This document shows, in pieces, positions 5,844 to 59,582 of a stretch of 64,000 bases of DNA. Position numbers and translations under genes: made by a program. Positions within the stretch are counted from its first letter, which is position 1. Each line of letters starts with the position of its first letter. The notes beneath the pieces are model-generated. The model did no database searches. It saw only the letters and a program-made list of their open reading frames with translations, and was not told where the DNA came from. This DNA comes from a virus. The stretch covers positions 21,117-85,116 of IMG/VR virus record IMGVR_UViG_3300025707_000655. One strand, given 5' to 3'.

Positions 5844-6454
5844 TGGGAATGAGCGATAAAGTAGTTATGCCGTTGTACTCGCAGAAAGTTTCTGAGTACA
5901 TAAACGAAAATCTAGAAGAGGGTCACAGGATCGCCTGGCTCGGACAACAGGACAGGAATTACACAGAAATGTTCGACGGTATTGTTTCGAAGACTGACAT
6001 AGATGGGTTAGAACACCACTTTTATGATATTGACAATGATCAGGGTGGTAATTCTTTTAAATGGGATGTACACGGTCCTTGGAATATCGAAGGGTATGAC
6101 CTGGTTGTGGGGTTAAGAATATTATTTTTATGTAGCTCGGCTAAGATGTTGGTCTCCAACATTAAGCATACCTGCAGTAAAAATGACAGGGTTGTATTTG
6201 ACTTCATGACCGGTAATCCCGAATTAATAGGGGGCAAGACAGTCTTTGTGAAGAAGAACAACAGCAAGACAATATTGCCATTCTTTCCCGACCTGTATGG
6301 AGAAGACTTTGGAGTCCAATCAAACCATCAAGATCAAATTATCACCCAAACCATGCTCACTGACGATGGGATACATTTAGAAAACCTGCTGACGTTTCGA
6401 GATACAGTTAAACACAGGTTCTACACTTTGGCGGAGTTGAAGATTGAATCTTAA
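5843..6454 (+). CDS. Unidentified protein, possible degenerate methyltransferase
   Basis: A 203-residue protein starting at a TAATG overlap; an ATG at 5852 is an alternative. A central stretch (IEGYDLVVGLRILFLCSS, then NDRVVFDFMTGNP) looks like the middle strands of a Rossmann methyltransferase that reports a scheduling or state check. The N-terminal strand HRIAWLGQQDRNY lacks the usual Gly-rich SAM loop. It could be an inactive or unusual methyltransferase. It lies between a deacetylase-like gene and a glycosyltransferase and is translated through the next start. Confidence 0.5.
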   Translation: MGMSDKVVMPLYSQKVSEYINENLEEGHRIAWLGQQDRNYTEMFDGIVSKTDIDGLEHHFYDIDNDQGGNSFKWDVHGPWNIEGYDLVVGLRILFLCSSAKMLVSNIKHTCSKNDRVVFDFMTGNPELIGGKTVFVKKNNSKTILPFFPDLYGEDFGVQSNHQDQIITQTMLTDDGIHLENLLTFRDTVKHRFYTLAELKIES

Positions 6455-7466
6455 TTTCTTACTTCTTGAGATGACTCACCTTAGATATTTTGCACCGCTA
6501 GTCAAAGCGGGCAACGATATGGGCTTGAAATCAACTTTCTTTGTCGGACCTTCAGGTAAATACAACTGCCCCTTGCGACATAAAAAAGAATTATCAGCAT
6601 TCACGTCAGAAAACAGAGTTAGTCTTGGTCATTTTTCGGCAGTCACAGCTTGCGCAGGTGTGTTGTTTTCTAGTGAAAAGACGGGCATCGACCTGGTTAG
6701 GGCAAACGAGGTAGCTAAAAAAGCGGTCCTAACTTATCAAACTGATTTTATTGAAAGTCACCACCTGTATGAGCCTTTTGTTGATCATATACTGATGCCA
6801 AGCAAAGCAATATCTGAATATTACGGACTTGCTAGTAAAAAGAACCTGTATCTTGGGATTCCAAAATATGACATAAAAATATCAAAACAGGAAGTCTTGG
6901 AGAAGTATAATCTGAGCGACTCGAAAAATGCGCTCATAGTGTGGCCTAAAACGCGAGATGCAAACAATGTAGATGTGGATAACATTTTGAACACTGTCAA
7001 ATCAATGGGTTATACCTTACTTGTAAAAACCAGAGGCAAAGACCCTTTGAACGCCACCGCTATTAAGACACTTAGAGATAACGGGGATTATTACTTTGAA
7101 GACGATTCCTGGCACCCACACACAACACAAGAACTTTTAGAGGTTAGCGACTTTGTTATTAATTTTGGATCAACCACGATAGAAGAAAGTGTGATGAACG
7201 ACACCCCAATACTGAATTTTGATGTAAAGCCAGAAGTTAGACACGGGGTTAAGAAACAATACAGGGTGACACACGACTATTTGTATAAATATAAGTACTG
7301 CATAGAAGCAAATAATTCAAACGTTGACCTACGAGCAGCAATACTTCATCTTACATCGAATGATTTTGCAGATGAGTTTGCAAAAGCTAGATTAGAACAT
7401 CTGTTTGATAACAAGAATGTGAGTATGAGAATCATAGAAAGGTTGGTCAAAAATGTCAAAAATTAA
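6444..7466 (+). CDS. GT-B fold transferase, CDP-glycerol glycerophosphotransferase-like
   Basis: A 340-residue protein with a TTG start that has GGAG 7 bases upstream at 6433-6436. The first half contains LTYQTDFIES and FVDHILMPSKAISEYYG. The second half has the donor-site pattern FVINFGSTTIEESVMNDTPI. These features match the GT-B family of CDP-glycerol:polyglycerophosphate transferases and related surface-polymer enzymes; a UDP-GlcNAc 2-epimerase-like fold is the alternative. It overlaps the previous gene by 11 bases. The likely role is transfer of a glycerol-phosphate or sugar unit; the substrate is not known. Confidence 0.68.
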   Translation: MNLNFLLLEMTHLRYFAPLVKAGNDMGLKSTFFVGPSGKYNCPLRHKKELSAFTSENRVSLGHFSAVTACAGVLFSSEKTGIDLVRANEVAKKAVLTYQTDFIESHHLYEPFVDHILMPSKAISEYYGLASKKNLYLGIPKYDIKISKQEVLEKYNLSDSKNALIVWPKTRDANNVDVDNILNTVKSMGYTLLVKTRGKDPLNATAIKTLRDNGDYYFEDDSWHPHTTQELLEVSDFVINFGSTTIEESVMNDTPILNFDVKPEVRHGVKKQYRVTHDYLYKYKYCIEANNSNVDLRAAILHLTSNDFADEFAKARLEHLFDNKNVSMRIIERLVKNVKN

Positions 7467-7530
7467 TCTAGTATCACTAGTAACCTGTTCGGGTGATTTT
7501 TTACTTGACATTAAGATGAATTTAGGGTAG
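7453..7530 (+). CDS. Possible 25-residue peptide or remnant of a gene start
   Basis: An ATG inside the end of the previous gene opens a 25-codon frame (MSKINLVSLVTCSGDFLLDI...) ending in TAG at 7528-7530. The first half reads like the start of a normal cytoplasmic protein. It may therefore be the truncated beginning of a lost gene. The upstream Shine-Dalgarno is weak. A promoter-like element overlaps its end. Confidence 0.25.
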   Translation: MSKINLVSLVTCSGDFLLDIKMNLG

Positions 7531-7533
7531 TAT
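7505..7533 (+). promoter_or_regulatory. Candidate sigma70-type promoter inside the cassette
   Basis: A consensus -35 box TTGACA (7505-7510) is followed after exactly 17 bases by TAGTAT (7528-7533), a four-of-six match to the -10 box. The expected transcription start falls at or next to the ATG of the NeuA-like gene at 7540. The gene also has only a weak Shine-Dalgarno (AGGG 12 bases upstream), so a leaderless transcript is possible. Confidence 0.4.
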
Positions 7534-7539
7534 TTATAA

Positions 7540-8088
7540 ATGATAATAGCTATTATACCCGCCCGAGGCGGCTCCAAAAGGCTACGTAAAAAGAACATTT
7601 ACCCTATTTGGGGTAAGCCCCTCCTGCACTGGTCTATAAAAGCCGCACTGGACAGCAAGAAGGTAGATGCCGTCTGGGTCACGACAGAAGATGATGAGAT
7701 AGCAGAGGTTGCTGTAGAATCTGGAGCGAACCTGTTCAAAAGAAATCCAAAGTTTTCAGACGACAACACGTACAAAATGGTTGCGATTAGAAATTGTTTC
7801 AACTCTATAGAGTTTAGCGGCAGCGCTGTTGTTTCGCTGCAAGCAAACTCACCAGAGATAACCGGAGACATTTTAGACGAGGCAATAGACACGTTCTTTA
7901 AATATGACAGAAATGAGCTGATAAGCGTTGACAAGAATCTTATGATGAACGCTGCTTTTAGGATTATGAGGCCCTGGTATGTAAACCAGAAAGAGTTGAG
8001 TACAAAGACCGGTGTCTTTGTTTGTGATGTGCACGATATACACACCATCGACGACATAAAACTAATAGAAGGGAGAACCCAGAGATGA
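7540..8088 (+). CDS. Acylneuraminate cytidylyltransferase-like (CMP-sugar synthetase)
   Basis: A 182-residue NeuA-family protein. It starts MIIAIIPARGGSKRLRKKN, the CTP-binding signature of CMP-sialic/nonulosonic acid and CMP-KDO synthetases. VSLQANSPE replaces the usual LLQPTSP-type segment, and TGVFVCD lies near the C terminus. Family members usually have about 220-230 residues, so this one is short. It would activate a nonulosonic acid with CTP to give a CMP-sugar donor. The matching NeuB-like synthase lies two genes downstream. It is coupled to the next gene by ATGA. Confidence 0.85.
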   Translation: MIIAIIPARGGSKRLRKKNIYPIWGKPLLHWSIKAALDSKKVDAVWVTTEDDEIAEVAVESGANLFKRNPKFSDDNTYKMVAIRNCFNSIEFSGSAVVSLQANSPEITGDILDEAIDTFFKYDRNELISVDKNLMMNAAFRIMRPWYVNQKELSTKTGVFVCDVHDIHTIDDIKLIEGRTQR

Positions 8089-8750
8089 AGCACGGCCTAG
8101 ATGGGATTAATTTTTTAAAGTTTAGATTTTCTGAAGAAGTTTTATCAGACAAATATTCGGATCGAGAAAAGACTGCAATGCAGACTAAAGAGTTGATAGA
8201 AATAGAGTCCCTAAACTCAGATTCGATCGTTCTTGATATTGGGGCCAACTACGGCGAAGTAGAGAGGGTTTTGTCGCCCGTTGGCTGCAAGGTGTATGCT
8301 TTTGAACCCCACCCACTGTTCTTTTCTATGCTTGAGAAGAATTATGCAGATAACGACAATATTGTATTGTCTAATTCTGCGATATGGAAAACTAACGAGA
8401 AAAAGACTTTCTATTTCAAGAGGGCAGCTTCAGCGCTTAACGGCGGAGCTACACTCATGTCTGAAAAAACCAATATAACAGATTTGAGTTTAAACGTGGA
8501 AGTGACCTGCCTGGATGTTTCCGAGCTTATTGCCACCATCGACAAGCCCATAGACGTGTTGAAAATGGACGTAGAGGGCGCGGAATATGAGATATTACAA
8601 AGATTATATGAATCTGGCGCGTATAAGAACGTTAAATCAATATATTTCGAGGATCATTCGAGAAAAATGCCTAGTAACGTTTTTCGCCAACTAAAAGCTA
8701 ACGTGTTAGAAAGTTATAAAAACGAAAACATAAGCTTGTATTGGTGGTAG
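8085..8750 (+). CDS. FkbM-family methyltransferase
   Basis: A 221-residue SAM-dependent methyltransferase. The SAM loop is VLDIGANYGEVERVL (about residue 50), followed by the acidic strand end VYAFEPHP. The FkbM signature DVLKMDVEGAEYEILQRL is clear, and IYFEDHS follows it. FkbM enzymes usually methylate sugar hydroxyls in polysaccharides and natural products. It sits between the NeuA-like and NeuB-like genes, so O-methylation of the nonulosonic acid or a neighbouring sugar is a reasonable inference. Confidence 0.87.
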   Translation: MKHGLDGINFLKFRFSEEVLSDKYSDREKTAMQTKELIEIESLNSDSIVLDIGANYGEVERVLSPVGCKVYAFEPHPLFFSMLEKNYADNDNIVLSNSAIWKTNEKKTFYFKRAASALNGGATLMSEKTNITDLSLNVEVTCLDVSELIATIDKPIDVLKMDVEGAEYEILQRLYESGAYKNVKSIYFEDHSRKMPSNVFRQLKANVLESYKNENISLYWW

Positions 8751-8751
8751 T

Positions 8752-8856
8752 ATGAACATTCCAGTAAAACTGTTTTATAATGCGGCTCTTGTCAAGTTGA
8801 GTCTGAGTTATCAAAAGATGGTCTGTATAATATTACTAATAACAAGGAGTACTTAA
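8752..8856 (+). CDS. Possible 34-residue peptide between neuA- and neuB-like genes
   Basis: The only sizeable gap in the cassette (about 106 bases) contains a 34-codon frame from an ATG directly after the FkbM stop to a TAA that abuts the TTG start of the next gene. The peptide (MNIPVKLFYNAALVKLSLSY...) ends in a hydrophobic stretch. Its 3' end carries the AAGGAG of the next gene. It may be a real leader peptide or spacer sequence; no homologue is recognised. Confidence 0.3.
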   Translation: MNIPVKLFYNAALVKLSLSYQKMVCIILLITRST

Positions 8857-9564
8857 TTGGAAATAATAGTCGATTTATGCAATCAGCACCATGGTTCTTT
8901 GTCTGAACTAAAACGAATGGCATTGAATGCTTCTATTTCGGGTGCTGACGTCGTGAAAGTGCAATTGATAGACTCCGAAAAACACTTCGGAACAAAAGAC
9001 AAGAAATATCGAGATGTGACTAAAACACAGTTTTTTGAACTTACAGAGTTCTGTGACCAACACTCAATTGAACTGATGGCGACCCCTTTCGATTCAGAAA
9101 GACTGAAGTGGATACTCGATGCCGGAATCAAAAGGATGAAGATAGCTAGCAGAACAGTCAGAGAAGACAGGTCTCTGTGTGAATCCATACTTGGTTTAGA
9201 CATACCAACGATTATTTCTACAGGTGCCTGCGCCCTTAACGAATTTCCATTTGGGTTTTCGGAGAACATAAGGTACTTGTTCTGCGTTTCTAAATATCCT
9301 ACTTATTTAGATGACCCTCTGTTGAAGATTATGCCAAGCAGGTTTTCTGAGAGTGGATACCACGGCTACAGTGACCACGCGATCGGAATAGTGCCTGCAC
9401 TCAAGGCCTACTTGAACGGCGCAAAGATATTAGAGAAGCACTACACAAGCAGTATTTTTTCACAGTCAAATAGAGAAAAAGGTCACCTTGGGTCTTTCGA
9501 CTACGAGTCTCTAAAACAATTTAAAGATTTGATCAGACAATTTGATATTATGGAGGCGGTATGA
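8857..9564 (+). CDS. NeuB-like N-acetylneuraminate/nonulosonic acid synthase, barrel only
   Basis: A 235-residue protein with the NeuB TIM-barrel pattern: DVVKVQLIDSEKHF near the N terminus, ELMATPFDSERLKWILD, KIASRTV, STGACALNE, and the hallmark GYHGYSDHAIGIVPA followed by ILEKHYT. NeuB enzymes condense phosphoenolpyruvate with an N-acylated hexosamine to give a nonulosonic acid. Typical members have about 340 residues and a C-terminal antifreeze-like SAF domain; this one stops after the barrel. The start is TTG, supported by AAGGAG 7 bases upstream (8844-8849). It would provide the sugar activated by the NeuA-like protein. Confidence 0.85.
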   Translation: MEIIVDLCNQHHGSLSELKRMALNASISGADVVKVQLIDSEKHFGTKDKKYRDVTKTQFFELTEFCDQHSIELMATPFDSERLKWILDAGIKRMKIASRTVREDRSLCESILGLDIPTIISTGACALNEFPFGFSENIRYLFCVSKYPTYLDDPLLKIMPSRFSESGYHGYSDHAIGIVPALKAYLNGAKILEKHYTSSIFSQSNREKGHLGSFDYESLKQFKDLIRQFDIMEAV

Positions 9565-10178
9565 GTCCAAAGGTTTCGATCATCGTTACAAATTACAATT
9601 ATGGAAAATATTTACCAAGATGTCTAAGGAGTTGTCTAGATCAACACGGCACCGGCACTGAGGTTATATTGGTTGATGATTGCAGTACTGATGACAGTCT
9701 CTCAAAGATAGAACCCTTCGGAGATCAGATAAAGACATTCAAGACAAACACGAATTCTGGAGTTGCCACAGCAGCAAATTTAGGAATTTCAAAGGCTCGT
9801 GGCCAATTCTTCTTTCGTGTAGATGCGGATGATTACATAAATAAAGATATGTCTTTTATAATGTCTAAATATCTTGAGGCTAATCATGACGCTTTTTGCG
9901 TCTCTTCCGACTACCTGATAGTCAACAATTTTGAAGATACGATCGACAGGAAATATGCAGAAAAAAACAACATCTCTTGTGGTATAATGTACAGAACTGA
10001 TCTTTTTTTGTCCTCTGGCGGCTACAATGGTAAAATGAGACATAGAGAAGAAGAGGAACTGAGGAAAAGACTGGGAGAAGAATACAAAATCCACCACTTG
10101 AGGATTCCATTTTATAGGTATAGAATGCACGACTCAAACAAAACAAAAGAACCAGAGTACAAGACTTGGGAGATATAA
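9561..10178 (+). CDS. Glycosyltransferase family 2
   Basis: A 205-residue GT-A protein: VSIIVTNYNYGKYLPRCLRS, then VILVDDCSTDDS, then RVDADDYIN, which contains a full Asp-x-Asp metal/nucleotide motif (near residue 90). The C terminus has the RHREEEELRKRL and YRMHDSNKT segments seen in many short GT2 enzymes. It is short but apparently complete. ATGA couples it to the NeuB-like gene. It probably transfers a sugar from a nucleotide donor. Confidence 0.87.
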   Translation: MSPKVSIIVTNYNYGKYLPRCLRSCLDQHGTGTEVILVDDCSTDDSLSKIEPFGDQIKTFKTNTNSGVATAANLGISKARGQFFFRVDADDYINKDMSFIMSKYLEANHDAFCVSSDYLIVNNFEDTIDRKYAEKNNISCGIMYRTDLFLSSGGYNGKMRHREEEELRKRLGEEYKIHHLRIPFYRYRMHDSNKTKEPEYKTWEI

Positions 10179-54741: not shown

Positions 54742-55278
54742 ATTAAGCATATACTAGGACTAGATATATCTACGACCATCACCGGTATCACAATTATGGA
54801 TGAGGACGGTGTTATGGTTTTTAACGAACAATGGGACACAAGAAATAAAAATCACTTTCCAACATTGTACCAAAAAGCAGACCTTATCAAAAAGAACCTG
54901 AAAGAAGTAAAAAAGAGTTACAACGTAAGGTCGATTTTTATAGAGCAATCTTTGCACTCGTTCCGTTCTGGTTTTTCCTCTGCACAGACCCTCTCGACAC
55001 TATCTAGATTTAATGGTATTGTATCCTGGCTTTGTTTTGAAATTTTTAAGACCGAACCGGAGATGATAGCTGCAACTTCCGCAAGGAAACAGGCCGGGGT
55101 AGAGATCAAAAGAGGTGACAACGCCAAACAAAAAACTTTAGAGTTTGTACTTGACCGGGAGCCTTCCTTCGTCATACAATATACAAAAGCTGGAAATCCG
55201 AAACCAGGAACAATGGATCGGTCTGACAGCTACGTTATTGCAAGGGCGGGTTATCTACAATGGAATCTGAAAAGGTAA
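54742..55278 (+). CDS. RuvC-like Holliday junction resolvase, apparent ATT start
   Basis: About 178 residues with the RNase H-like RuvC core. The first acidic residue is in HILGLDISTTITGITI, the second in SIFIEQSLHSFRSGFSS, and the last pair in TMDRSDSYVIARAGYLQW. The first motif lies upstream of the first ATG (54796), and the frame is closed by a TAA at 54709-54711 with no ATG, GTG, TTG or CTG between. The best start is ATT at 54742 (or 54736), with GGGGAA at 54731-54736. It resolves branched recombination intermediates before packaging. It overlaps the primase gene by 19 bases. Confidence 0.78.
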   Translation: MKHILGLDISTTITGITIMDEDGVMVFNEQWDTRNKNHFPTLYQKADLIKKNLKEVKKSYNVRSIFIEQSLHSFRSGFSSAQTLSTLSRFNGIVSWLCFEIFKTEPEMIAATSARKQAGVEIKRGDNAKQKTLEFVLDREPSFVIQYTKAGNPKPGTMDRSDSYVIARAGYLQWNLKR

Positions 55279-56192
55279 GTATACTAGAGAGCATCCTCGG
55301 CAGGTATTATGTCTCTGGCGAGGAATACTTGTTTGAGTGCCCTAGTTGCAAACATCACAAGAAGAAATTCTCAGTAAATCTAGACAAGGGTGTGTACAAG
55401 TGCTGGGTCTGTGACTACTCTGGCCTGAAGCTTTCCTCCCTGGTAAAAAGGTATGGAGACAGGAGTCACTTCGCCGCGTGGTCAGAACTAGATGAGGTTG
55501 TGGACTTAAGCTCTTTTGATTCCTTGTTCGAAGAGATTGATCCAAACGACATCCCCAAAAGAACAACAAGCCTCCCAGAAGATTTTTTCTCTTTGACGAA
55601 AAGAATGAACGATGTCGAGTACAGGAAGGCTCTTAACTATTTGAAGTACAGGAACGTAACCAGGGATGACATTGTGAGGTGGAGAATCGGCTTCTGCCGC
55701 ACGGGAGCGTATGCAGGAAGGGTATGCATACCCTCTTTTGACGAGGGGGGAAATTTAAGCTACTTTATAGCAAGAACTTACAAGAACGATTTTCCTAAAT
55801 ATAAAAACCCTCCCGTAGATAGGAACGTGGTATTTAATGAATTGTACATAGACTGGCAAGAACCTGTCATACTTGTTGAGGGTGTGTTCGACGCGATAGT
55901 CGCGGGCAATGCGCTACCACTGTTGGGGTCGACACTCTCAGAAAGAAGTCAGGTGTTCAAGAGAATAATAGAGGAGTGCCCAACAGTTTATATGGCCTTG
56001 GACGCAGATGCAGCCAAAAAAGAAATGAGAATTATAAAATTATTACTCCAATACGATTTAAAGGTTTACAAAGTGAGCACGTCGGGCTATGATGATGTTG
56101 GGTCTATGACTAAGGGTGAATTTCTAAAAAGAAAAGAAGGTGCGGCTCTTATTGATCAAACCAACTATTTATATCAGTGCTTAAGTTTATAA
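55260..56192 (+). CDS. 61: DNA primase, DnaG/gp61-like
   Basis: A 310-residue primase. The N-terminal zinc ribbon is YLFECPSCKHHKK with VYKCWVCDYSG (residues about 22-55). A helical domain follows (ALNYLKYRNVTRDDIVRWRI). A Toprim domain starts at about residue 200 with PVILVEGVFDAIVAG (conserved Glu), and ALDADAAKKEM gives the Asp-x-Asp. It makes RNA primers on the lagging strand, probably with a gp41-like helicase encoded elsewhere. T4 gp61 has 342 residues. The ATG lies inside the end of the resolvase gene. Confidence 0.88.
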   Translation: MESEKVSILESILGRYYVSGEEYLFECPSCKHHKKKFSVNLDKGVYKCWVCDYSGLKLSSLVKRYGDRSHFAAWSELDEVVDLSSFDSLFEEIDPNDIPKRTTSLPEDFFSLTKRMNDVEYRKALNYLKYRNVTRDDIVRWRIGFCRTGAYAGRVCIPSFDEGGNLSYFIARTYKNDFPKYKNPPVDRNVVFNELYIDWQEPVILVEGVFDAIVAGNALPLLGSTLSERSQVFKRIIEECPTVYMALDADAAKKEMRIIKLLLQYDLKVYKVSTSGYDDVGSMTKGEFLKRKEGAALIDQTNYLYQCLSL

Positions 56193-56419: not shown

Positions 56420-56441
56420 AATAAAAAAAGATGGAGGCTGA

Positions 56442-59400
56442 ATGCGTTTTGCCCACATAGCGGATACTCATATCCGAAATTTGAAGTATCATCATGAATA
56501 TAATGAAGTTTTTGATCAATTATACAAATCTCTAGAGGAGCAAGATGTCGATTACATAGTCCATTGTGGGGACATCGCACACACGAAGACTCAAATATCA
56601 CCAGAGTTCGTCGAGATGTGTTCCAAGTTTCTATCCAGGCTTGCCAACATCGCCCCAACGTACGTGATCCTGGGAAATCACGACGGTAACCTGAAAAATG
56701 CAAGTCGTCAAGATGCGATAACGCCCATCGCTGAAGCTTTGCAAAACCCTAATCTGTTTATACTTAAACGGGCCCAAGAGGTAGTGCTGGAGGACAAGTT
56801 CGCTTTAAACGTCTTGTCTGTGTTCGATGAGGAGAACTGGAGTGAGCCCTCCAACAAACAGCTTGTCAACATTGCCCTGTACCACGGTGCAATCGACAGA
56901 TCGAAAACTGATTTGAACTGGACATTGACCGGCGACCACGACATCAGTATCTTCGACAGGTTTGACTTTGCCTTTTTAGGAGACATACACAAGACTCAAA
57001 TTCTGGATCATAAAGGCAAGGTAAGATATGCCGGCTCGACAGTTCAGCAGAATTTTGGAGAGTCTCTAGACAAAGGCTACTTGCTTTGGGATATCACAAG
57101 TAAAGATAAATTTACCTGTAAGTTGCACACGTTCAAGAATCCCAAACCCTTTGTTACCATCTTCTTAAACTCCAAGGGCGAGCTTCCGAACAACATAAAC
57201 GCTCCTCCTGGGGCACGTCTCAGGGTCGTATCGGAAAACAACATTCCCTTGGCCAGAATGAGAAGGGCCCTTGATCTTGTAAAACACAAGTACAAGCCAG
57301 ACACCTTGACGTATATGAACAGGGCAAGCTCAAAAGGTTCTGAGGTGGATGTTAGTTCGGTTTCCACTAAAGAAGATCTAAGAGACATCGAAGTACAACA
57401 ACGCCTAATCAGGGAGTACTTGAATGATTACGAAATAACTGACGAGGTTATGAACAGGATCCTGCTCCTGAACTCAAAGTACAACACGTCTATCGAGGAG
57501 GAAGAAGAGGTTTACAGAAATATAAACTGGTCCCTCAAGAGTGTCGAGTGGGACAATCTGTTTAACTACGGAAAAGGCAACAAGGTAAATTTTGACAAGT
57601 TGTCGGGTATCGTCGGTATTTTTGGTAAGAACTTTTCAGGCAAATCTTCGATCATAGATAGCCTGCTTTATACGATGTACAACAGCACGTCAAAGTCCGT
57701 CAGGAAGAATCTGAATTTCATCAACCAGAACGAGGTCAATGCGTTTGGCAGGACTGTTATCGAGATTGGAGATAGGACTTATACGATAGAACGAAAGTCG
57801 GAAAAGTATCTCAAAAAATTAAAAGGTGTGGAAACAATCGAGGCAAAGACGAGTGCTGACTTTGTTTGTGTCGACGCAATGGGGCAGGTCGAAGAACTCA
57901 ACGCCTTGGCCAGAGGAGGTACGGACAAAGAGATCAGAAGGTATTTCGGGACGTTAGAAGACTTTTTGATGACTTCTATGACCAGCCAAATGGATTCTCT
58001 AACCTTTATCAATCAAGGCGTCACAGAGCGGAAGAAGATTCTGGCAAAGTTTTTAGATTTAGAAATTTTTGATAAAAAGTTTAAGATGGCTAAAAAAGAT
58101 TCAGCGGAAGCGAAAGCTCTTTTGAAAAAGCTCGAAGAGATAGATTTCGAGGGGCAACTTGAGGAAGCGAATGAAGCTCTTGAACTCAGCAACAAACGCC
58201 TAGTGGAGAGCCAGAGTAAGTGTTCGTCCCTGGAGGAACAAGCCCAACAGTTGGCAATAAAGATGGAGGGCATCAAGGCAAAGGTAGATTCGGCCCCGTC
58301 GGAACTGATAGACCCAGTTAGACTGAAAAAGCAGATACGTGCTAAAGAGAATACGATATCCACTGCCAAAGTTGAAAACGAGTCGTATACTGAACAGATA
58401 AGCTCAGACTCCGTGACTTTAGAGAAAATGGAAAAGTTTGTAGAGCAGTTTGATGTAGGTTCGTACCAAGAAAAACTGAACCTGATAAATACAAAGTCGA
58501 AAGACCTGGACCTCTTGCTGTCGGAAATCAAAAGCTATTCGGAACAGAGGACGAGACTTTACAAGAAACAAGACTTGTTGTCAGAGGTTCCTTGTGGTGA
58601 CAAGTTTCCTAATTGTAAATTTATTAAAGACGCTTACGGTTCTTTAGACCTGGTGAAGGTCGTTGAATCCAAGATGTCTGTCGTTTCCAAAAAGGCAAAT
58701 GAAGTCGGAAACGAAATATCTGAATTGCAGCCAGACAAGGTTGGAGAATATTTGGAGAAATACAATCAACTTGTAGAGAAAAAGAACAGATTAGCTTCGT
58801 CTCTGGCCAGTTTGAAATTAAACAAGGAAAGAAACGAAGGTTTAATCTACAAAGAAGAGGCAGACTTAAAGCCGTTGAATTCCAGGATGGCAGAATATGA
58901 AGGCAACAAGGACGCGATGGAGAGCCTAGAAGAACTGTTACTTGAAAGGCAGGCCCTACAGACAGAGTCACCAAAAGTCAAGAGGGAATGGGACGCTTGC
59001 AAATCAGATACGAACGATCTATTTAGGGAGATAGGTTCTAATGAACAGGTGGTCAAGACACTGCAGGCCAAAAAGCTGGAACTACAATCTCTGAGGGAAG
59101 AATATTCCGCTTTTGAATTGTATATAAAATGTTGTCATTCTAATGGCATATCTTACGACATTATTAAAAACAGACTCCCGGTAATTAACGAAGAGATCGC
59201 AAAAATACTGACGGGTATTGTTGACTTTGAGACGTTTATATTGGATGACGACAAGGATTTGAACATATTTATCAAGCACCCGAAGTATGACCCAAGGCCA
59301 TTAGAGATGGGCTCCGGTGCCGAGAAGACAATAGCCTCTATGGCAATTAGGCTTGCGTTACTAGCAGTTACGAATTTACCAAAACCGGACCTATTTATTA

Positions 59401-59582
59401 TGGACGAACCGGGCACGGCTTTGGATGAGGACAATATGGAAGGTTTTGTTAGAATTATCGATATGGCCAAGACTTATTTTAAGACTGTCATTTTGATATC
59501 GCATTTAGATGCGCTCAAGGACTCTGTAGATACTCAAATTAACATTGACAAGCTCGGAAGTTACGCTCACGTAAACGTTTAG
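56442..59582 (+). CDS. Fused SbcD/Mre11-gp47 nuclease and SbcC/Rad50-gp46 ATPase
   Basis: A 1046-residue single chain. Residues 1-340 are the metallophosphoesterase: HIADTHIRN (7-15), CGDIAHTKT (about 42), GNHDG (about 77), LYHGAI and FLGDIHKTQ. From about 365 the Rad50 half begins (SLKSVEWDNLFNYGKGNKVN). Its Walker A is FGKNFSGKSSIID (about 393), a long coiled coil spans 540-900 with CGDKFPNC as a hook-like Cys pair (about 717-724), the ABC signature is EMGSGAEKTIASMA (about 955), and Walker B is LFIMDEPGTALDE (about 983). In T4 the two subunits are separate genes 47 and 46. The complex resects DNA ends for recombination-dependent replication. Confidence 0.92.
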   Translation: MRFAHIADTHIRNLKYHHEYNEVFDQLYKSLEEQDVDYIVHCGDIAHTKTQISPEFVEMCSKFLSRLANIAPTYVILGNHDGNLKNASRQDAITPIAEALQNPNLFILKRAQEVVLEDKFALNVLSVFDEENWSEPSNKQLVNIALYHGAIDRSKTDLNWTLTGDHDISIFDRFDFAFLGDIHKTQILDHKGKVRYAGSTVQQNFGESLDKGYLLWDITSKDKFTCKLHTFKNPKPFVTIFLNSKGELPNNINAPPGARLRVVSENNIPLARMRRALDLVKHKYKPDTLTYMNRASSKGSEVDVSSVSTKEDLRDIEVQQRLIREYLNDYEITDEVMNRILLLNSKYNTSIEEEEEVYRNINWSLKSVEWDNLFNYGKGNKVNFDKLSGIVGIFGKNFSGKSSIIDSLLYTMYNSTSKSVRKNLNFINQNEVNAFGRTVIEIGDRTYTIERKSEKYLKKLKGVETIEAKTSADFVCVDAMGQVEELNALARGGTDKEIRRYFGTLEDFLMTSMTSQMDSLTFINQGVTERKKILAKFLDLEIFDKKFKMAKKDSAEAKALLKKLEEIDFEGQLEEANEALELSNKRLVESQSKCSSLEEQAQQLAIKMEGIKAKVDSAPSELIDPVRLKKQIRAKENTISTAKVENESYTEQISSDSVTLEKMEKFVEQFDVGSYQEKLNLINTKSKDLDLLLSEIKSYSEQRTRLYKKQDLLSEVPCGDKFPNCKFIKDAYGSLDLVKVVESKMSVVSKKANEVGNEISELQPDKVGEYLEKYNQLVEKKNRLASSLASLKLNKERNEGLIYKEEADLKPLNSRMAEYEGNKDAMESLEELLLERQALQTESPKVKREWDACKSDTNDLFREIGSNEQVVKTLQAKKLELQSLREEYSAFELYIKCCHSNGISYDIIKNRLPVINEEIAKILTGIVDFETFILDDDKDLNIFIKHPKYDPRPLEMGSGAEKTIASMAIRLALLAVTNLPKPDLFIMDEPGTALDEDNMEGFVRIIDMAKTYFKTVILISHLDALKDSVDTQINIDKLGSYAHVNV

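Follow-up and report, generated by a model that had tools for sequence, protein, structure and literature searches.

A full-length phage member of the Mimivirus R555 class of fused Mre11-Rad50 proteins

The fused gene and its neighborhood

The window analyzed here is a 64,000-nucleotide stretch of viral DNA, part of an IMG/VR record of 85,116 bases that is itself probably incomplete. On its plus strand, a fused Mre11-Rad50 (SbcD-SbcC) gene (56442..59582) encodes 1046 amino acids plus stop in one uninterrupted open reading frame (ORF), with a GGAGG Shine-Dalgarno sequence (56433-56437, plus strand) directly 5′ of its ATG. Pfam matches to both partners lie in the same frame: Metallophos (PF00149, 8e-13) at amino acids (aa) 1-152, and AAA_23 (PF13476, 7.5e-9) or SMC_N (2.3e-12) from aa 372 toward the C terminus. 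Among PHROGs, the gene matches phrog_77 (SbcC-like, 3e-47).

All domains follow one another on the plus strand. The Mre11/SbcD calcineurin-like nuclease domain (aa 1-230; 56442..57131) was delimited by PF00149, column conservation, and alignment with Mre11/SbcD proteins of known structure. It is followed by a capping-domain equivalent (aa 231-315; 57132..57386), whose probable boundary comes from the elements and pLDDT of an AlphaFold2 (AF2) model and which includes a low-confidence loop (aa 294-309). The model and alignment then place a Rad50-binding helix-loop-helix (aa 316-330 and 334-354; 57387..57503) with a Glu run at its C-terminal end, and conservation together with the model defines a linker (aa 355-361; 57504..57524). 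The Rad50 N-terminal ATPase lobe (about aa 362-545; 57525..58076), recognized by PF13476 and conservation, carries the Walker A motif GKNFSGKS (57624-57647) and the Q-loop residue Q516. AF2 helices form a coiled coil (about aa 541-898; 58062..59135), within which alignment identifies a putative zinc hook, C718-x6-C725 (CGDKFPNC; 58593..58616). The C-terminal ATPase lobe (59136..59579) holds the signature SGAEK (aa 958-962), Walker B (D988-E989), the D-loop (D995), and the H-loop (H1021).

Upstream on the same strand lie a RuvC-like gene (54742..55278), named from its LGLDISTT motif and synteny and without a Pfam or PHROG match, and a DnaG-type primase gene (55260..56192; phrog_47, 2e-46; synteny). 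Nearly all relatives with enough flanking sequence share this arrangement, with the primase and RuvC-like genes upstream and the terminase large subunit gene a few genes downstream. The RuvC-like gene has no ATG, GTG, or TTG ahead of LGLDISTT; its start is likely the ATT at 54742, which has GGGGAA upstream. Two relatives (L091 and L092) have an apparent ATG start for this gene. One of them, L091 (CP070664.1, WOR-3), carries the RuvC-like gene, the primase gene, a viral-type fused gene, and N-masked stretches inside a 2.8-Mb metagenome-assembled (MAG) chromosome; this viral-type segment is either a provirus or a misassembly.

In each of eight large relatives (155-204 kb), AAA_23 and Metallophos both match only once, in the fused gene. 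We found no second, unfused Mre11/Rad50 pair in these eight or in the window's 85-kb record. RecA is encoded in all eight; none was found in the window's own 85-kb contig, a likely fragment. A search for plasmid homologues yielded one weak Vibrio match only.

The reading frame through the junction

An IMG/VR search returned 438 relatives, from which 80 loci were kept (50-100% identity, a few ending at a contig edge). Both halves lie in one frame in all 80, one of which is an identical sequence on a second contig, and likewise in Microcystis phage Mel-JY01 (29% identity) and the 735-kb phage LR756501. A further 25 loci came from scans that used two divergent relatives as queries; 24 of these have a single frame, and the exception (L130) is described below. 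The claim of the earlier note that Mre11 and Rad50 halves are fused in one 1046-residue frame is thus borne out by the ORF, the Pfam matches, and the 80 loci, and the fusion that it proposed to seek in other phages turned out to be the rule in a large marine phage group.

Selection acts on the frame across the junction. For codons 340-372, pN is 0.066 against a pS of 0.92 (pairs 75-97% identical). Because dS is saturated, dN/dS values were set aside and pN was compared with pS alone. Low pN against saturated pS indicates that the frame is selected through the junction, and the codon comparison argues for strong purifying selection on it.

Could the gene nevertheless yield two proteins, with an internal start, a frameshift, or a protease freeing the Rad50 half beside the full-length protein? 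Some features of the junction would suit such an arrangement: its Glu codons create an internal GAGGAGGAAGAAGAGG, which is Shine-Dalgarno-like, and in 20 of 81 relatives codon 358, immediately ahead of the Rad50 half, is ATG, with a Shine-Dalgarno-like site upstream of 7 of the starts at this codon. However, the window gene has no in-frame ATG, GTG, or TTG from codon 338 to codon 386, so translation from any internal start would truncate the Rad50-binding helices or leave out the Rad50 N terminus. Codon 358 itself varies among relatives (Met, Ala, Tyr, Ser, or Gly), and no conserved internal start with a Shine-Dalgarno-like site was found across them. The saturation of synonymous sites at the junction (pS 0.92-0.94) shows that no embedded signal is conserved, and no relative examined is split there. 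We therefore consider two products exceedingly improbable. The start scan, the relatives, and the pN/pS comparison exclude, as far as sequence allows, a junction frameshift, an assembly or sequencing error, and a hidden second start. The earlier note had named a hidden frameshift, an internal start, and a sequencing error near 57500 as grounds for doubt; each was checked and none was found.

Some relatives are interrupted elsewhere. In the 484-kb phage LR756508 (L085), the break in the fused gene (5944-10169) lies within the nuclease domain and away from the junction of the two halves. Just after GDIHKRQ comes an ORF of 305 aa, in which a TnsA-like endonuclease domain (PF08722, 6e-6) is accompanied by zinc-finger-like Cys pairs; the break resembles one made by insertion of a mobile endonuclease gene. 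No Rfam family reached the gathering threshold in the window or in L085, and there is no Rfam intron at the LR756508 break. In relative L130 (3313-6547), the break falls in almost the same loop of the nuclease, after GDIHKMQYM, and leaves two overlapping frames; a remnant of an insertion, a programmed frameshift, and an assembly error are all conceivable. In the MAG contig L094 (1-130), residues reading NGKISISGN|C stand ahead of the extein and resemble the C terminus of an intein, which would have entered the GNHD motif of a fused Mre11-Rad50 gene.

Active sites, hook, and junction structure

The nuclease residues D8, H10, D44, N79, H80, H148, and H183 are invariant in every covering row of an 83-sequence alignment. 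By alignment, the metal-ligand set is complete save for the position of Pfu His206, which is Asp181. Here, the motif GDIH (D181-H183; 56982..56990, plus strand) has Asp in place of the first His of GHxH. Asp occupies this position in all 83 aligned sequences, and GDIH occurs in 24 of 24 further relatives. GDIH or GDVH is found in most of a second group of fused phage proteins, and GDLH in the unfused phage PG07; GHxH is kept in T4 gp47, E. coli SbcD, and cyanophage proteins. The same His206 to Asp change has been reported for Mimivirus R555 (PMC3175470). We treat Asp181, from these comparisons, as a subfamily trait shared by R555 and other viral members. The earlier description of all active-site motifs as intact thus holds for nearly all of them, the exception being this family-wide His to Asp replacement. 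Another substitution, H47, has Asp at the same position in SbcD and His in T. maritima Mre11. Loss of the active site through a GDxxD to GDxxH change was rejected, since T. maritima Mre11 likewise has His.

As judged from the alignment, Asp181 lowers the certainty of canonical exonuclease activity and could alter metal use or exonuclease activity. The fixation of GDIH in the 83 aligned and 24 further proteins, and the presence of GDxH in PG07 and in most proteins of the second fused group, would also fit a larger shift, in which the nuclease half is catalytically altered and the protein is mainly an end-binding, bridging, or SMC-like structural machine, or an endonuclease without exonuclease activity. 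We think this unlikely: all other ligand positions are invariant, which indicates that selection on metal binding persists; Asp itself can bind metal; and GDxH recurs in several lineages, not in decaying copies.

On the ATPase side, Walker A, Q-loop, signature, Walker B, and H-loop are near-invariant in the alignment, in halves split by the coiled coil. In place of LSGGE, the ABC signature reads SGAEK. At the putative hook, the window protein and 65 of the 83 aligned sequences have C-x6-C, and 16 of the 83 have CxxC. The cysteine spacing switches among close relatives, and most of the proteins with CxxC are some 14 aa shorter.

The AF2 model is a monomer with a mean pLDDT of 80 and a pTM of 0.47, and it does not fix the domain arrangement. 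In it, the Glu run (352-356) mostly finishes the second Rad50-binding helix (aa 334-354), the first Rad50 strand begins at residue 362, and residues 355-361 lead into that strand. The Rad50 half had been said to start directly after a Glu-rich linker; a Glu run does lie near the junction, but in the model it is the end of a helix, and the linker proper spans about aa 355-361. R359, N360, and W363 are invariant across the 83 sequences. A pattern match found RN-x-x-W in 19 of 24 further fused relatives; it is absent from the second fused group and from two-chain proteins. For the T. maritima complex, it has been estimated that a span of 9-12 residues could connect the Mre11 C terminus with the Rad50 N terminus (PMC3175470), so a covalent link at this junction fits the known interface.

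Relation to known complexes and probable function

Fusions of Mre11 and Rad50 have been described in Mimivirus, Bacillus phage 0305phi8-36, bacteria, plasmids, and eukaryotes by Yoshida, Claverie and Ogata 2011 (PMC3175470). Homologues of R555 were abundant in aquatic viral metagenomes, and some, on scaffolds with phage primase genes, were suggested to be phage-borne (PMC3175470). The window protein resembles the R555 type in its single ORF and domain order, with Mre11 first, in the His206 to Asp change and the His of GDxxH, and in its retained helix-loop-helix and short linker. It also has aquatic viral homologues with a phage primase nearby, and its best structural matches are such giant-virus proteins. 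In the comparison with viral models (BFVD), the best matches align over nearly their whole length; they comprise long Mre11/Rad50-type proteins of giant viruses, among them Tupanvirus and Harvfovirus, and proteins of Tenacibaculum phages pT24 and PTm1. Unlike R555, it is encoded in a phage genome and is shorter (1046 aa versus 1351 aa). The protein is thus a full-length phage member of the fusion class described in 2011, neither rare nor new. The rarity implied by the earlier note does not hold: the fusion is the rule in the marine group and occurs in several cultured phages and in giant viruses. Among the open-access papers searched, we found no later experimental study of such fusions.

The second fused group comprises cultured phages (Rhizobium RHph_TM30, Vibrio 1.031.O, Escherichia IME392, Thermus phiLo, and Cobetia Carin-5). 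Its proteins also have Mre11 followed by Rad50 in one ORF, but they are very divergent from the window gene, with an LSGGQ signature and no RN-x-x-W junction, and they form a separate clade (support 100/100). The best tree needs two changes for the fusions, although the AU test does not reject a single clade of all fusions (p 0.53), so that independent origins of the two groups are not established. Members of the second group (866-1054 aa; L100, L105, L106, L107, and L108) are annotated as SbcD-like, SbcC-like, coil-containing, or hypothetical, which hides the fusion.

Like T4 gp47/gp46, the window gene provides both activities with the nuclease first, and presumably has the same role. As the earlier note had stressed, the T4 genes are separate; 46.1 and 46.2 lie between them, and their products have GHFH in place of GDIH and SEGEK in place of SGAEK. 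Fold, motifs, and clamp-nuclease architecture are shared with E. coli SbcCD and archaeal and eukaryotic Mre11-Rad50, which differ in having separate chains, GHIH, a CxxC hook, and an LSGGE signature (E. coli). Foldseek matches of the AF2 model in the PDB include Chaetomium Mre11-Rad50-Nbs1, E. coli SbcCD, and Thermotoga Mre11:Rad50. The separate complexes are already M2R2 assemblies, held by the Mre11 C-terminal helix-loop-helix. This element is retained in the fused protein, according to the AF2 model and alignment. Thus, the proposal that fusion fixes a one-to-one stoichiometry and brings the nuclease to the ATPase head adds little, as two-chain complexes already achieve this.

With considerable confidence, we regard the protein as an R555-class fused Mre11-Rad50 (SbcDC) of a T4-like marine tailed phage, probably in the role of T4 gp46/gp47 and acting as a predicted homodimeric, ATP-gated nuclease. 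It would most likely form an M2R2 homodimer, in which ATP-dependent engagement of the two ABC heads would clamp a DNA end and gate DNA access to two metal-dependent nuclease sites, with the coiled coils joined via the cysteine hook. Double-strand ends would be processed or resected to 3′ single strands for the phage RecA/UvsX. In T4 recombination, gp46/gp47 are regarded as the main enzymes of resection (PMC3016280), and by analogy the fused protein most likely takes over their job in recombination-dependent replication. The fusion would add a covalent tether of about 7 residues where the separate proteins normally bind.

A different role, as a host-DNA-degrading or defense-related SMC nuclease rather than a recombination enzyme, might be read from the annotation of T4 gp46/47 as also needed for host DNA degradation, and from structural matches that include Lamassu and JetABC heads. 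The full Mre11 and Rad50 architecture, the core context with primase and terminase, and the presence of the gene in all large relatives tested make such a role highly unlikely. More speculatively, the junction of the fused protein might be a functional element beyond a tether, with R359, N360, W363, and the short link coupling the ATPase state to the nuclease in cis, alongside an Asp-substituted metal site. We raise this tentatively and think it improbable; if true, the junction and Asp site would make a regulated end nuclease unlike the two-chain complexes.

The many phage contigs confirm at full length the conclusion drawn in 2011, mostly on short-read evidence, that aquatic phages are a main home of fused Mre11-Rad50 proteins. 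A 1046-aa single-chain complex would suit structural and single-molecule work on Mre11-Rad50 allostery.
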